Assembly (NCBI GenBank): GCA_030682715.1
Contig: JAUXNQ010000062.1
Span: 1 to 64,000 of the forward strand
DNA from: Methylotenera sp.
GTDB taxonomy: Bacteria > Pseudomonadota > Gammaproteobacteria > Burkholderiales > Methylophilaceae
Direction: 5' to 3'
Length of the DNA: 64,000 nucleotides
The notes under the pieces were generated by a model. That model made no database searches. It worked only from the letters and a program-made list of their open reading frames with translations, and was not told the DNA's origin. Below, in pieces: positions 30,117-34,526 of this stretch. A program made the position numbers and the translations under genes. Numbering within the stretch: position 1 is the first letter of the stretch; the number at the start of each line of letters is the position of its first letter.

Positions 30117-32039
30117 ATGGGAAAAATTATTGGTATTGACTTGGGCACAACGAACTCTTGCGTAGCCGTAATGGAAGGTGGCAAGCCACGCGTGATTGAA
30201 AATGCTGAGGGCGCACGCACAACGCCTTCTATCATTGCATATCAAGAAGATGGCGAAATCTTAGCGGGCGCCCCTGCAAAACGCCAAGCAGTGACTAACC
30301 CAAAAAATACACTTTATGCGGTAAAACGTTTAATCGGTCGCCGCTTTGAAGAAAAAGAAGTGCAAAAAGACATTGGTTTGATGCCTTACTCAATTGCAAA
30401 AGCTGACAACGGCGATGCATGGGTAGAGATTCGCGGTGTGAAAATGGCTCCGCCACAAATTTCTGCTGAAGTTTTGCGTAAAATGAAAAAAACAGCTGAA
30501 GACTATTTGGGTGAAGAAGTAACAGAAGCTGTGATTACAGTGCCTGCTTACTTCAACGACAGCCAACGTCAAGCCACTAAAGATGCTGGCCGTATCGCTG
30601 GTTTAGAAGTTAAACGTATCATCAATGAACCAACGGCTGCTGCATTGGCTTTCGGTTTAGACAAACAAGAAGGCGACCGTAAAATCGCTGTGTATGACTT
30701 GGGCGGCGGTACATTCGACGTTTCTATCATTGAAATTTCAAGCATTGATGGCGAACATCAATTTGAAGTGCTTTCTACCAACGGTGATACATTCTTAGGT
30801 GGTGAAGACTTTGATAACCGCTTAATCGATTTCTTGGCTGACGAGTTCAAAAAAGAAAATGGCTTAGATTTACGCAATGACTTATTGGCAAAACAACGCT
30901 TAAAAGAAGCGGCTGAAAAAGCAAAAATTGAATTGTCTGGCGCACAACAAACTGAAGTGAACTTGCCATACATTACTGCTGATGCATCCGGGCCTAAACA
31001 CTTAGTGGTGAAAATCACTCGTGCAAAATTAGAGTCATTAGTAGATGACTTAATTGAGCGCACTATGGCGCCTTGTAAAACTGCGATTAAAGATGCTGGC
31101 GTTTCAATCGATGACATTACTGACGTGATTTTAGTTGGCGGTCAAAGCCGCATGCCTAAAGTGCAAGAAAAAGTAAAAGAGATTTTCGGTAAAGAACCAC
31201 GTAAAGACGTAAACCCTGATGAAGCGGTTGCAGTAGGTGCAGCAATTCAAGGTGGCGTGTTACAAGGTGACGTAAAAGACGTATTGTTGCTAGACGTAAC
31301 ACCATTGTCATTAGGTATTGAAACACTAGGTGGCGTGATGACTAAACTCATCAAGAAAAACACCACGATTCCTACCAAGGCATCACAAGTGTTCTCAACT
31401 GCTGATGACAACCAAAATGCAGTAACGATTCAAGTATTACAAGGTGAGCGCGAAATGGCGTCTGCTAATAAATCACTTGGTCAATTTAACTTAAGCGACA
31501 TTCCACCAGCACCACGTGGCATGCCACAAATTGAAGTAACTTTTGATATTGATGCTAACGGTATTTTGCATGTTTCAGCAAAAGACAAAGCAACTGGTAA
31601 AGAAAACAAAATCACGATCAAAGCAAACTCTGGTCTTTCTGAAGAAGAAATCAAGAAGATGGAAGAAGATGCTGTTAAATATGCCGAAGAAGACCGCAAA
31701 TTACGCGAACTTGTTGACGCACGCAATGCAGCAGACGGCATGGTTCACTCTGTGAAAAAATCACTTGCTGAGCACGGTGATAAGTTAGATGCTGCTGAAA
31801 AAGAAGCCATTGAAACTGCAATTAAAGACGTTGAAGAAGCATTAAAATCAGACGACAAAGCAGAGATTGAAGCAAAAACAGAAGCATTAACTGCAGCGTC
31901 ACAAAAACTTGGTGAGAAAGTTTACGCAGAGCAACAAGCGCAAGCGAACACTGAAAGTGCTCAACCAAGCCCAGAAGGTGAAAAAACAGTGGATGGTGAT
32001 GTAGTAGATGCAGAGTTTGAAGAAGTGAAGAAAGACTAA
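30117..32039 (+). CDS. dnaK: Chaperone DnaK (Hsp70)
   Basis: ATP-dependent chaperone acting with DnaJ and GrpE. The 640 residues have the nucleotide-binding domain with [55 protein letters not shown] and [14 protein letters not shown]; the linker [13 protein letters not shown] near residue 390; the substrate-binding domain; and the acidic tail ending [17 protein letters not shown] strong AAGGAAA ribosome site precedes the ATG. The next gene downstream in the operon is separated by an intervening-sequence-like insert. Confidence 0.99.
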
Positions 32040-32051
32040 TATCAGTAAAAG

Positions 32052-32071
32052 GTGAAATGAGAAACGTGAAA
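32052..32071 (+). repeat. Left arm of the inverted repeat around the four-helix-bundle gene
   Basis: GTGAAATGAGAAACGTGAAA, 12 bp after the dnaK stop. It is complementary at 18 of 20 positions to the right arm at 32470-32489; in the sense RNA one of the two mismatches becomes a G-U pair. The arms enclose 398 nt. Confidence 0.85.
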
Positions 32072-32100
32072 AGTAAAACCCTTTAAAAGCGAAAGCGGAC

Positions 32101-32465
32101 GTGCAGCGCAATCATAAAGATTTAAGAGTTTGGCAAGTCGCCATGCGCTTGGTTCAAGAGATTTATACGCTCACGTCTGCTTTTCCTAAAGAAGAGTTAT
32201 TTGGTTTAACGTCGCAAATGCGGCGCGCAGCCGTATCGGTACCCTCCAACATTGCTGAAGGCTCCGCACGGAACGGCACAAAAGAACTGATTCACTTTCT
32301 CAGCATCGCCTCTGGCTCATTATCTGAACTTGACACACAAAATTAGAACTAACGAAGTTACTAGGCTATAGCAGCGACATAAGTAAAATTCAAGCTTCGC
32401 TAGACGAAGCCAATGCACTAACTTTGGCGCTGGCTAAATCATTAAAAAGCAAACTGAATACTTAA
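32101..32465 (+). pseudogene. Four-helix-bundle protein of the 23S rRNA intervening-sequence (IVP/S23) family, frameshifted
   Basis: The frame from GTG 32101 reads NHKDLRVWQVAMRLVQEIY, then LTSQMRRAAVSVPSNIAEG, both hallmarks of the about 120-residue IVP family, and stops at TAG 32344 after 81 codons. A second frame opening at 32343 (QLELTKLLGYSSDISKIQ onward) continues the expected fourth helix to TAA 32463. Two extra A residues, or one missing base, in the A-run at 32339-32342 account for the break. No canonical slippery heptamer is seen, so decay is more likely than programmed frameshifting. Family members normally lie in 23S rRNA genes or as lone genes; here it lies between dnaK and dnaJ, inside a 20-bp inverted repeat. 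Confidence 0.85.
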
Positions 32466-32469
32466 CATG

Positions 32470-32489
32470 TTTCACATTTCTCGTTTCAC
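32470..32489 (+). repeat. Right arm of the inverted repeat around the four-helix-bundle gene
   Basis: TTTCACATTTCTCGTTTCAC, pairing with 32052-32071. It ends 9 bp before the dnaJ start codon and occupies the place where a Shine-Dalgarno sequence would be expected. Confidence 0.85.
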
Positions 32490-32498
32490 ATAAAAAAT

Positions 32499-33629
32499 AT
32501 GGCAGCCAAAAAAGATTACTACGAAGTCCTAGGTGTAAATAAGGACGCCTCTGAAGAAGAGATTAAAAAGGCTTATCGCAAACTTGCGATGAAGTACCAT
32601 CCTGACCGCAACCCCGACAACCCTAAAGCAGAAGATCAGTTTAAAGAGGCAAAAGAAGCCTACGAAATGCTCTCTGACGACCAAAAACGTGCTGCTTATG
32701 ATCAATACGGCCATGCTGGCGTTGACCAAAGCATGGGTGGCAGCGGTGCTGGCTTTGGTGGTGCTGGCTTCGGCGATGCGTTTGGCGACATCTTTGGCGA
32801 TATTTTTGGTGGTGGTGCACGCGGCCAACGCAGTAATGTTTATCGTGGTGCAGATTTGCGCTACAACATGGAAATCTCGCTTGAAGATGCAGCCAAAGGC
32901 ACTGAAACTAAAATTCGCATCCCAGTTCAAGCAAAATGCGACCCTTGCAACGGCACTGGTGCAAAATCAGGTAAATCACCTGTTACTTGCCCTACATGTG
33001 CAGGGCATGGTCAAGTCCGTATGCAACAAGGCTTTTTCTCTGTACAGCAAACTTGTCCTAAGTGCCACGGTACAGGCAAAGTCATTAAAGAAGAAGACAA
33101 ATGCCCTAGCTGTCATGGTGCTGGCCGCGTTAAGCAAAACAAAACACTTTCAGTCAAAATCCCAGCTGGAGTGGATGAAGGCGACAGAATTCGCTTAAGT
33201 GGCGAAGGGGAGGCTGGTGTAAACGGTGGTCCAACAGGTGATTTGTATGTCGTGATTCACCTAAAAACACACGAGATCTTCCAACGTGATGGCGGTAATT
33301 TACATTGTGAAATGCCAATTAGCTTTAGCACCGCAGCCTTAGGCGGTGAAATTGAAGTGCCAACACTAGACGGTTCAGCCAAGATGAAGATTCCTGCTGA
33401 AACCCAAACTGGCGGTGTATTTAGATTGCGTGGTAAAGGCATTAAACCGCTACGTACTAGCGACTACGGCGACTTAATGGTACATGTGGTGGTGGAAACC
33501 CCAGTAAAATTAACCACACGTCAAAAAGAGCTGTTACGAGAGTTTGAAGAAAGCACGCAAGCAGATGCGGGCAAGCACAGCCCAAAAAACAAAAGCTGGG
33601 TAGATAAGGCAAAAGACTTTTTTGGATAA
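32499..33629 (+). CDS. dnaJ: Chaperone DnaJ (Hsp40)
   Basis: Co-chaperone that delivers substrates to DnaK and stimulates its ATPase. The 376 residues show the J domain with KYHPDRNPD near residue 30, the Gly/Phe-rich linker ([20 protein letters not shown]), four CxxCxGxG zinc motifs ([32 protein letters not shown]) from about residue 148, and the C-terminal substrate-binding and dimerisation domains. No Shine-Dalgarno sequence is visible before the ATG; the right arm of the flanking inverted repeat lies there instead. A perfect 12-bp hairpin follows the stop. Confidence 0.99.
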
Positions 33630-33651
33630 ACCGAGATTTTCCATTTGACCC

Positions 33652-33679
33652 CGTCATTCCCGCCTGCGCGGGAATGACG
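33652..33679. repeat. REP-like perfect hairpin after dnaJ
   Basis: CGTCATTCCCGC and GCGGGAATGACG form a perfect 12-bp stem around a CTGC loop. The GTCATTCCCGC...GCGGGAATGAC type is a widespread extragenic palindrome in proteobacteria. It may stabilise or end the dnaK-dnaJ transcript; no T-run follows. Confidence 0.75.
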
Positions 33680-33888
33680 CTCAATTAGACAAAGCTAAGT
33701 TTCTGCAACATTGCATAGACTAAACAACTTGACACCTTGCACTAAAAATTTCCACAAATAAAAAAGTTACATACCATAAATCCATTATAAATCAATATAT
33801 TGCGCTAACCTCTTCCATTAGAAAATTTGTCTAATGGTAAATCTCAGATAAATAAAGTCGGATATTTAAAATCTTCGTTGAAAATAAA

Positions 33889-33926
33889 AAAGGCTCTGTA
33901 TGCGTTAACGCATACAGAGCCTTTTA
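33889..33926 (-). terminator. Cold-shock gene terminator, 38-bp perfect palindrome
   Basis: AAAAGGCTCTGTATGCGTT is followed immediately by its exact reverse complement. On the minus strand the stem is followed by a run of T with one A, giving a strong Rho-independent terminator about 50 bp after the cold-shock stop codon. Confidence 0.9.
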
Positions 33927-33975
33927 AGTATTGGGGACCAGATGTAGGCTAACCCAAATTTAGTTTAGATAAAAC

Positions 33976-34179
33976 TTAAGCTTTCTGAATATTTGAAGCT
34001 TGTTTACCTTTTGGGCCTTCAGTTAAATCAAAACTTACACGTTGGCCTTCTTTTAGGCTTTTATAACCTGATTCTACAATCGCTGAGAAGTGTGCGAATA
34101 AATCGTCACCACCATCATCAGGTGTAATAAAACCAAAACCTTTAGAATCATTAAACCATTTTACGGTACCTGTTGCCAT
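33976..34179 (-). CDS. Cold-shock protein, CspA family
   Basis: A 67-residue single cold-shock domain, an RNA chaperone. It has [20 protein letters not shown] (RNP1) and DLFAHFSAI (RNP2), and ends ASNIQKA. The frame is open upstream to 34290, but ATG 34179 is preceded by AAGGA and gives the exact family length. A strong promoter lies about 120 bp upstream, leaving a long leader as in other csp genes. Several paralogues usually exist, so no specific gene letter is given. Confidence 0.96.
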
Positions 34180-34526
34180 TTCATACATCCTTACATAATA
34201 CAAAGGGGGGTGCCCCAAAAAGTTTGCCTCAAGAACAGAAGTCGCAGTAACTAAATTAAAGCAGGCTACAAAAAACTCGAATTCAAACACCTAAACATAT
34301 TTATATGTTGCTTTTTCTTAGATGTCAAGAAGTTTTTTACTTCATGGTTGCTATATGTTGCGCTAAGCTCACTACGCTTGATTACTTTGTCTTGAAAGTT
34401 AATATAATTAGCTAATTTTGATGATAAAAGACGTAAAGTCTTTACAAAAAAAAACGTAAAGTGCATTATTGGATTGAATAAATTAATTGGAATTGTTTGT
34501 AAGCTCATTCAACCACGACAATCAAT
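34180..34526. other. Divergent regulatory region between the cold-shock gene and pilB
   Basis: 347 bp. It contains the cold-shock leader of about 114 nt, including a GGGGCACCCC hairpin (34207-34216) close to the start codon, and the cold-shock promoter. The pilB side is AT-rich and I could not identify a clear promoter for pilB. No gene is seen. Confidence 0.55.
34300..34328 (-). promoter_or_regulatory. Sigma-70 promoter of the cold-shock gene
   Basis: On the minus strand TTGACA (34323-34328), 17-bp spacer, TATAAA (34300-34305): ideal -35, ideal spacing and near-ideal -10. Predicted start near 34293 gives a leader of about 114 nt before ATG 34179. Confidence 0.8.

Follow-up and report, generated by a model that had tools for sequence, protein, structure and literature searches.

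The spacer between dnaK and dnaJ in the genome G000 (this 2.45-Mb Methylotenera assembly; the window is the stretch of 64,000 nucleotides analysed here) holds what is, as judged from its sequence, an element of the intervening-sequence (IVS) type situated outside rRNA. Intervening sequences have mostly been treated as a curiosity of rRNA, and their origin is obscure. The element is rather probably a compact mobile unit, an IVP/S23p gene framed by inverted arrays of degenerate heptamers, which would loop out of the transcript and whose arrays the protein would recognise. Its gene is broken in G000, and its nearest relative is not that of the flanking genes. Heptamer arrays of the same design frame many other IVP genes, including copies in rRNA, and also exist in gene-less form.

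Anatomy of the dnaK–dnaJ element

The features of the interval are collected in Table 1, with G112 and G117 as related genomes of the genus. The arms GTGAAATGAGAAACGTGAAA (32052–32071) and its imperfect inverse (32470–32489) pair at 18 of 20 positions, with one G–U and one A–C mismatch, which bears out the 20-bp imperfect inverted repeat of the original prediction. As a measure of the extent of the arms, this 20-nt repeat stands on its own terms but falls short on the left, where the array continues through five degenerate heptamers detected by a 15-of-21 lag-7 scan. With five units on the left and three on the right, the element belongs to the proposed class of heptamer-armed IVP elements, as does the G112 copy.

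Table 1 Features of the dnaK–dnaJ interval, in window coordinates
Feature	Position	Strand	Remarks
dnaK, 640 aa	30117..32039	+	Upstream neighbour, from the ORF list
5′ array, five degenerate heptamers (GTAAAAG GTGAAAT GAGAAAC GTGAAAA GTAAAAC)	32045..32079	+	Contains the arm 32052–32071
5′ part of the PF05635 (23S_rRNA_IVP, S23p, four-helix-bundle) gene	32101..32346	+	GTG start, 81 aa
3′ remainder of the IVP gene, shifted in frame, LELTKLLGYSSDISKIQ...LNT*	32343..32465	+	Matches the C-terminal half of the G112 protein
3′ array, three inverse heptamers (GTGAAAC GAGAAAT GTGAAAC)	32466..32489	-	Four units in G112
Whole replaced spacer, 459 nt	32040..32498	+	463 nt in G112; unrelated 101 nt in G117
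dnaJ, 376 aa	32499..33629	+	Downstream neighbour

A degenerate pattern of the arm, allowing up to 3 mismatches, matched four times in the 64 kb of the window, always at the two arms and partly with overlap (0.07 matches expected); at up to 2 mismatches the two arms are the only matches in the 2.45-Mb assembly. The arm score of 15.6 exceeded 2000 of 2000 base shuffles; measured against the null applied to other IVP loci, it falls above the 95% point (13.0) and below the 99% point (18.2). The arms are paired in the predicted RNA fold (z −4.5), and a stem of the kind that defines 23S rRNA intervening sequences should be able to close on this model.

The enclosed frame matches PF05635 over profile positions 1–77 with 110.9 bits (E 7e-32; curated cut-off 33.8 bits), and the profile of this family matches the solved entries 2gsc and 2rld. 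A gene of the four-helix-bundle IVP family is therefore enclosed by the arms, as had been proposed, but not as an open frame: in G000 it is frameshifted, the ORF stopping at 81 aa and the rest continuing in another frame, whereas the gene at the same site in G112 is intact. An assembly error in an A-run may be the source of the frameshift. The two copies also differ by one heptamer unit, the extra unit lying in the right array of G112. No other ORF of at least 60 aa was found on the + strand inside the element, and no Rfam match at gathering score occurs in the locus (L018, window positions 30300–34300).

The original prediction had further pointed to TAAAA on both flanks as a possible target duplication. 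The left TAAAA is part of the decaying heptamer array (GTAAAAG), and the pair is absent from the dnaK–dnaJ copies L010 and L011; there is no target duplication. Like MITEs and insertion sequences, elements of this kind have inverted ends, gene-less short versions and signs of horizontal spread; unlike them, the element has no transposase, shows no target duplication and has arms that vary by locus. With one PF05635 match and one arm pair in the whole of G000, recent multi-copy transposition was rejected.

Conflict between the element and its flanks

The element of G000 is 97.9% identical to that of G112, whereas both flanking genes are closer to G117: dnaK is 94.1% identical to G117 (1400 nt) and 86.5% to G112 (1740 nt), and dnaJ 91.9% and 80.6%, respectively. 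The affinity switches almost exactly at the dnaK stop and the dnaJ start, to within a few bases. A dnaK–dnaJ probe matched in 51 of the 52 genomes of the genus, and the related strains without the insert, which were expected to reveal its exact ends, do exist: besides G000 and G112, all 28 spacers read in other genomes of the genus are empty of the IVP gene. Twenty-seven of these are 91–186 nt long and one is 1322 nt (G134, a genome with no IVP gene). The comparison also alters the picture of a simple insertion, since the difference from the empty-site strain G117 takes in the entire intergenic spacer, from the dnaK stop to the dnaJ start.

At guaB–guaA, G000 groups with G117 in flanks and spacer alike, so the conflict at dnaK–dnaJ is local. 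A second discordant pair is found at guaB–guaA itself, where G112 and G168 have an identical 85-nt spacer (L188, L193) between compared stretches of guaB and guaA that are 84.0% and 78.3% identical. This spacer is a gene-less inverted GTGAAAY array, forming a hairpin, and G168 has no IVP gene. In a control, element-free spacers sometimes exceeded their own flanks in identity, the largest excesses being +9 and +10 points. The two element pairs, at +10.7 and +17.3 points, rank highest at their sites, and the other IVP-bearing pairs at guaB–guaA show little or none (+4.4, +2.0, −2.8 and −8.7). Because spacer-versus-flank identity alone is not decisive, the case for transfer rests on the conflict with the nearest relative of the flanks. 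This conflict points to horizontal arrival: the element probably reached G000 from outside, apparently from another species, and replaced the former dnaK–dnaJ spacer.

The distribution of the IVP gene is patchy, with 7 of 52 genomes in the genus and 13 of 150 sampled genomes in the bacterial family. Three genera have an IVP gene at the dnaK–dnaJ site (G000 and G112; G025; G045 and G055), and the dnaK side of a further IVP copy, in G002, was recognised by eye. The three intact proteins from this site cluster with support of 90/83, which is below the level that the tree program itself stars. The guaB–guaA site is occupied in five genomes of the genus and in further genera (L004, L006, L008); the protein of G021 at this site clusters with that of G028 at another (support 89/93), and both copies have GGGGCTA-type arms.

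The empty dnaK–dnaJ spacers (L020–L047) contain several unrelated types of hairpin by eye, among them AGTCGTTAG arrays with a terminator-like stem, CTAGGGG arrays and CACAGAG arrays, so the spacer may be a place of exchange for hairpin cassettes. GTGAAAY arrays without an IVP gene were also seen in G006 (L235, L229) and G168 (L222, L232), neither of which has the gene; they lie beside an nrdR-like start, before a gmhB-like gene and beside ilvC/ilvN-like genes (named by eye), and a single arm lies in a 23S–5S spacer. Matches to the GTGAAA pattern at up to 3 mismatches outnumber those to a reversed control in G112 (13 versus 1), G168 (14 versus 1), G006 (11 versus 4) and G060 (8 versus 1), with no such excess in G000 (5 versus 5) or in most of the other 15 genomes searched. 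A strict scan of 400 kb (about 14%) of G117, which also misses the window's own arms, found no heptamer arrays. A looser scan of G117 that detects the window's left array found two sites, no more than at control periods; the idea that such arrays are common throughout the genus was rejected.

Heptamer arrays around IVP genes

A set of 121 IVP loci from many phyla was assembled from 11 loci of the family, 80 named genomes (the best 80 of 591 relatives) and 30 loci of a phylum sample, in which the IVP family occurs in 52 of 299 genomes. The arm table omits four of 15 family rows (L001, L014, L015 and L017), which were the own copy, truncated or split, and 119 of the 121 loci were scored, L095 and L143 having short flanks. 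The null was obtained by pairing left and right flanks of different loci; p-values are descriptive, because the loci are not independent and some are orthologs.

Inverted-arm scores exceeded the 95% point of the null in 96 of 119 loci and the 99% point in 65, compared with 15 and 7 of 208 flank pairs of neighbouring genes, and 23 of the 119 fell below the 95% line. The search of other genomes for four-helix-bundle genes with flanking arms outside rRNA, which had been proposed as a check, thus returned many. Of the 119 loci, 77 have 7 as their best lag upstream and 74 downstream; inside the gene this lag leads in only 13, and in far flanks in 8 of 114. In a scan of 123 loci (four copies from the genus added) that sought arrays independently on each side, two-sided lag-7 arrays were found in 58 and were absent from 65; far flanks gave 1 of 112, lag 8 gave 9 of 123, and each other lag from 4 to 13 gave at most 2. 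These array pairs match better inverted than direct in 51 of 58 cases, with 2 ties. The unit itself is specific to the locus, with 54 different consensus heptamers among the 59 loci whose left arms show a clear period of 7.

Of 108 IVP genes with neighbours classified from mechanical ORF calls, 77 lie in the sense and 5 in the antisense direction between co-directional genes, and 26 lie between convergent or divergent genes; 88 of the 108 have gaps shorter than 300 nt on both sides. Elsewhere in these loci, ORFs with co-directional neighbours are sense in 95 cases, with 27 antisense (among ORFs of up to 180 aa, 25 versus 12), so the sense bias of IVP genes is stronger than that of their surroundings. 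At 50 of 96 loci, each of the three frames of the left arm contains a stop codon; base shuffles give 16.6 ± 3.5 such loci, and the opposite strand 18 of 96. As 7 is not a multiple of 3, three stop-holding units close every reading frame. Start codons (ATG/GTG) are ten times denser on the sense strand of the 5′ array than on the other strand of these 96 loci.

The element in the window differs from the 23S rRNA intervening sequence in lying between dnaK and dnaJ; it resembles it in the S23p/IVP family, the inverted arms around the ORF, the adjoining heptamers and the decay-prone ORF. Its residence in a protein-coding operon, as first described, does not set it apart: a conserved 23S motif, sought with up to 4 substitutions in flanks of limited length, was seen at none of the 121 loci. 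Copies inside rRNA were met in G396, which has two identical IVP copies with the 23S motif, one of which, when run against Rfam, fell inside LSU rRNA; both are framed by inverted arrays of a TCAGGAA-like heptamer. Passages of PMC4990558 describe an rRNA intervening sequence with tandem heptamers of varying number before S23p, a 28-bp stem and excision by RNase III; the dnaK–dnaJ stem, by comparison, is 20 nt long with one A–C and one G–U. The G396 arrays, taken with the heptamers and stem of that report, indicate that rRNA and intergenic copies share one design, and the claim that the dnaK–dnaJ unit is of the same kind as the rRNA intervening sequence holds on protein family, inverted arms and heptamer architecture alike.

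The G396 copies, in repeated 23S genes, are the only identical IVP pair met. Among the other pairs above 85%, most align across almost all of the sequence compared (87–95%), in the manner of orthologs, and a few align only in part. IVP matches were present in 31 of 72,556 plasmid records and in none of 50,697 phage records, and a phage vehicle was rejected on the latter count. The six cyanobacterial plasmid copies opened among these 31 have inverted arms of about 7-nt units. One lies between cas6 and cas4 on a Pseudanabaena galeata plasmid (L292), and another, on a Nostoc edaphicum plasmid (L290), is flanked by two ribonucleotide reductase genes of the opposite strand. According to a figure legend of PMC10910872, 23S rRNA IVP is one of the proteins newly linked to CRISPR adaptation modules.

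A Rhodanobacter IVP copy (L091) has GGGATTC arms. STRRs, repeats of cyanobacteria, are comparable to heptanucleotide repeats. The latter, as described in parts of PMC4692102 (Xanthomonas and Nostoc), PMC2700814 (Geobacter) and PMC4679880 (Beggiatoaceae), are mostly intergenic arrays, like those around IVP genes, and in Xanthomonas they form inverted pairs (70 and 75 cases, PMC4692102). Excerpts of the main texts of these three papers contain no link of heptamer repeats to IVP or S23 (for PMC2700814, to IVP), and no general link between IVP genes and heptamer arrays was found in the openly accessible, published articles covered.

Function of the arrays and a possible wider class

The most likely course of events in the cell starts from the element being carried in the sense direction within the host transcript. 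Pairing between the two arrays would make the element loop out, and the looped-out element could be cut by RNase III, as in rRNA. Looping out (and cutting) would let it sit harmlessly between two genes, and the IVP protein may recognise the heptamer arrays and help to keep or spread the element.

The main rival to looping out is a role of the arrays at the DNA level, as inverted terminal, iteron-like binding sites for an IVP oligomer, RNA pairing being incidental and sense orientation reflecting only that a promoterless gene is read from the host operon. Two tests of the arms agree with it. Mismatches between arms are compatible with G–U in 114 cases and not in 172 (25 versus 38 by loci), giving no G–U bias in the sense RNA, and the unit variants of one arm do not recur in mirror order in the other (z 0.14 ± 0.18, 43 loci; a first version of the test, with z 1.06, was discarded because its arms had been picked by the alignment under test). 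With both results negative, selection for one exact RNA stem is not supported; the arms share a unit but do not arrange its variants in matching order, as might be expected of interchangeable units. Unit length also differs in another protein family, GxxExxY (see below), and loci with more similar IVP proteins have slightly more similar heptamers (68 loci, Mantel r 0.24, p 0.0005), although this correlation comes mostly from close relatives, the partial r falling to 0.11 (p 0.025) with pairs above 50% identity excluded. Against a purely DNA-level role stand the complementarity of the arms, which is far above chance, and the published rRNA case (parts of PMC4990558), in which the arms are excised as RNA stems. 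A DNA-level element is considered rather unlikely on this balance.

It is improbable that the host keeps the unit as an operon-spacer device, an intercistronic hairpin with an all-frame translation stop that separates dnaK and dnaJ expression and has the gene as a passenger. Such a device would fit the other hairpins often found in empty dnaK–dnaJ spacers, many of them terminator-like by eye, the excess of left arms with all-frame stops, and the gene-less heptamer hairpins at guaB–guaA and elsewhere; yet the patchy presence in the genus, the element/flank conflict and the decay of the gene better fit a mobile element, and the role would be impossible inside 23S rRNA, where the same IVP unit occurs in G396. 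Least probable by far is a retroelement-like unit, with IVP as an Avd-like partner of a reverse transcriptase and insertion through RNA. The sense orientation of IVP genes would suit it, as would the resemblance of PF05635 to Avd of diversity-generating retroelements, described as homologous in a passage of PMC10053308. RVT_1, however, occurs in 16 of 52 IVP genomes (a hand-counted overlap) versus 97 of 299 genomes overall, a non-significant difference (the two counts come from 299-genome samples that share identifiers and are probably the same), and G000 has no RVT_1 match; a reverse-transcriptase partner was rejected on both grounds. The mobile element that loops out of the transcript thus remains the preferred reading.

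A parallel to the IVP arrays is seen in the GxxExxY genes (PF13366), present in 32 of 200 genomes. Of 30 sampled loci (L253–L282), most of them from one bacterial family, 28 were scored (L276 and L279 skipped). Inverted arms with a CRCRRAG-like core lie above the 13.0 line in 24 of the 28 and pass the family's own null in 19. Two-sided arrays occur at lag 9 in 7 of 28 loci and at lag 10 in 7 of 28, with none at lag 7; as the best lag, 9 ranks first upstream (10 of 28) and loses that lead downstream (4 of 28). G000 itself holds one GxxExxY locus (L272, G000:C46:70713-71054), and gene-less arrays resembling those of GxxExxY fill guaB–guaA in G000 and G117 (L192, L196).

Because IVP arrays have 7-nt units and GxxExxY arrays 9–10-nt units, unit length seems tied to the protein family. 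A tentative extension, on the doubtful side of even, is a class of minimal elements made of a small protein and inverted arrays whose unit length is set by the protein (7 nt for IVP, 9 or 10 nt for the unrelated PD-(D/E)XK proteins of the GxxExxY family), the arrays being written, homogenised or moved out of register by the protein or its process. If true, this would explain the locus-specific units, the arms that agree in unit and not in order, the gene-less hairpins and many intergenic heptamer repeats, and rRNA intervening sequences would be a small, rRNA-resident corner of a class of protein–array elements.

The findings place intervening sequences within a widespread family of intergenic elements and connect two literatures, on IVS/S23p and on bacterial heptanucleotide repeats, that are unlinked in the parts of PMC4692102, PMC2700814 and PMC4679880 covered here. 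The matched filled and empty dnaK–dnaJ sites provide an example pointing to horizontal arrival. The data also suggest a candidate role for orphan IVP proteins, the binding or reshaping of their own heptamer arrays, and the pairing of GxxExxY with 9–10-nt units suggests that a general principle is involved.
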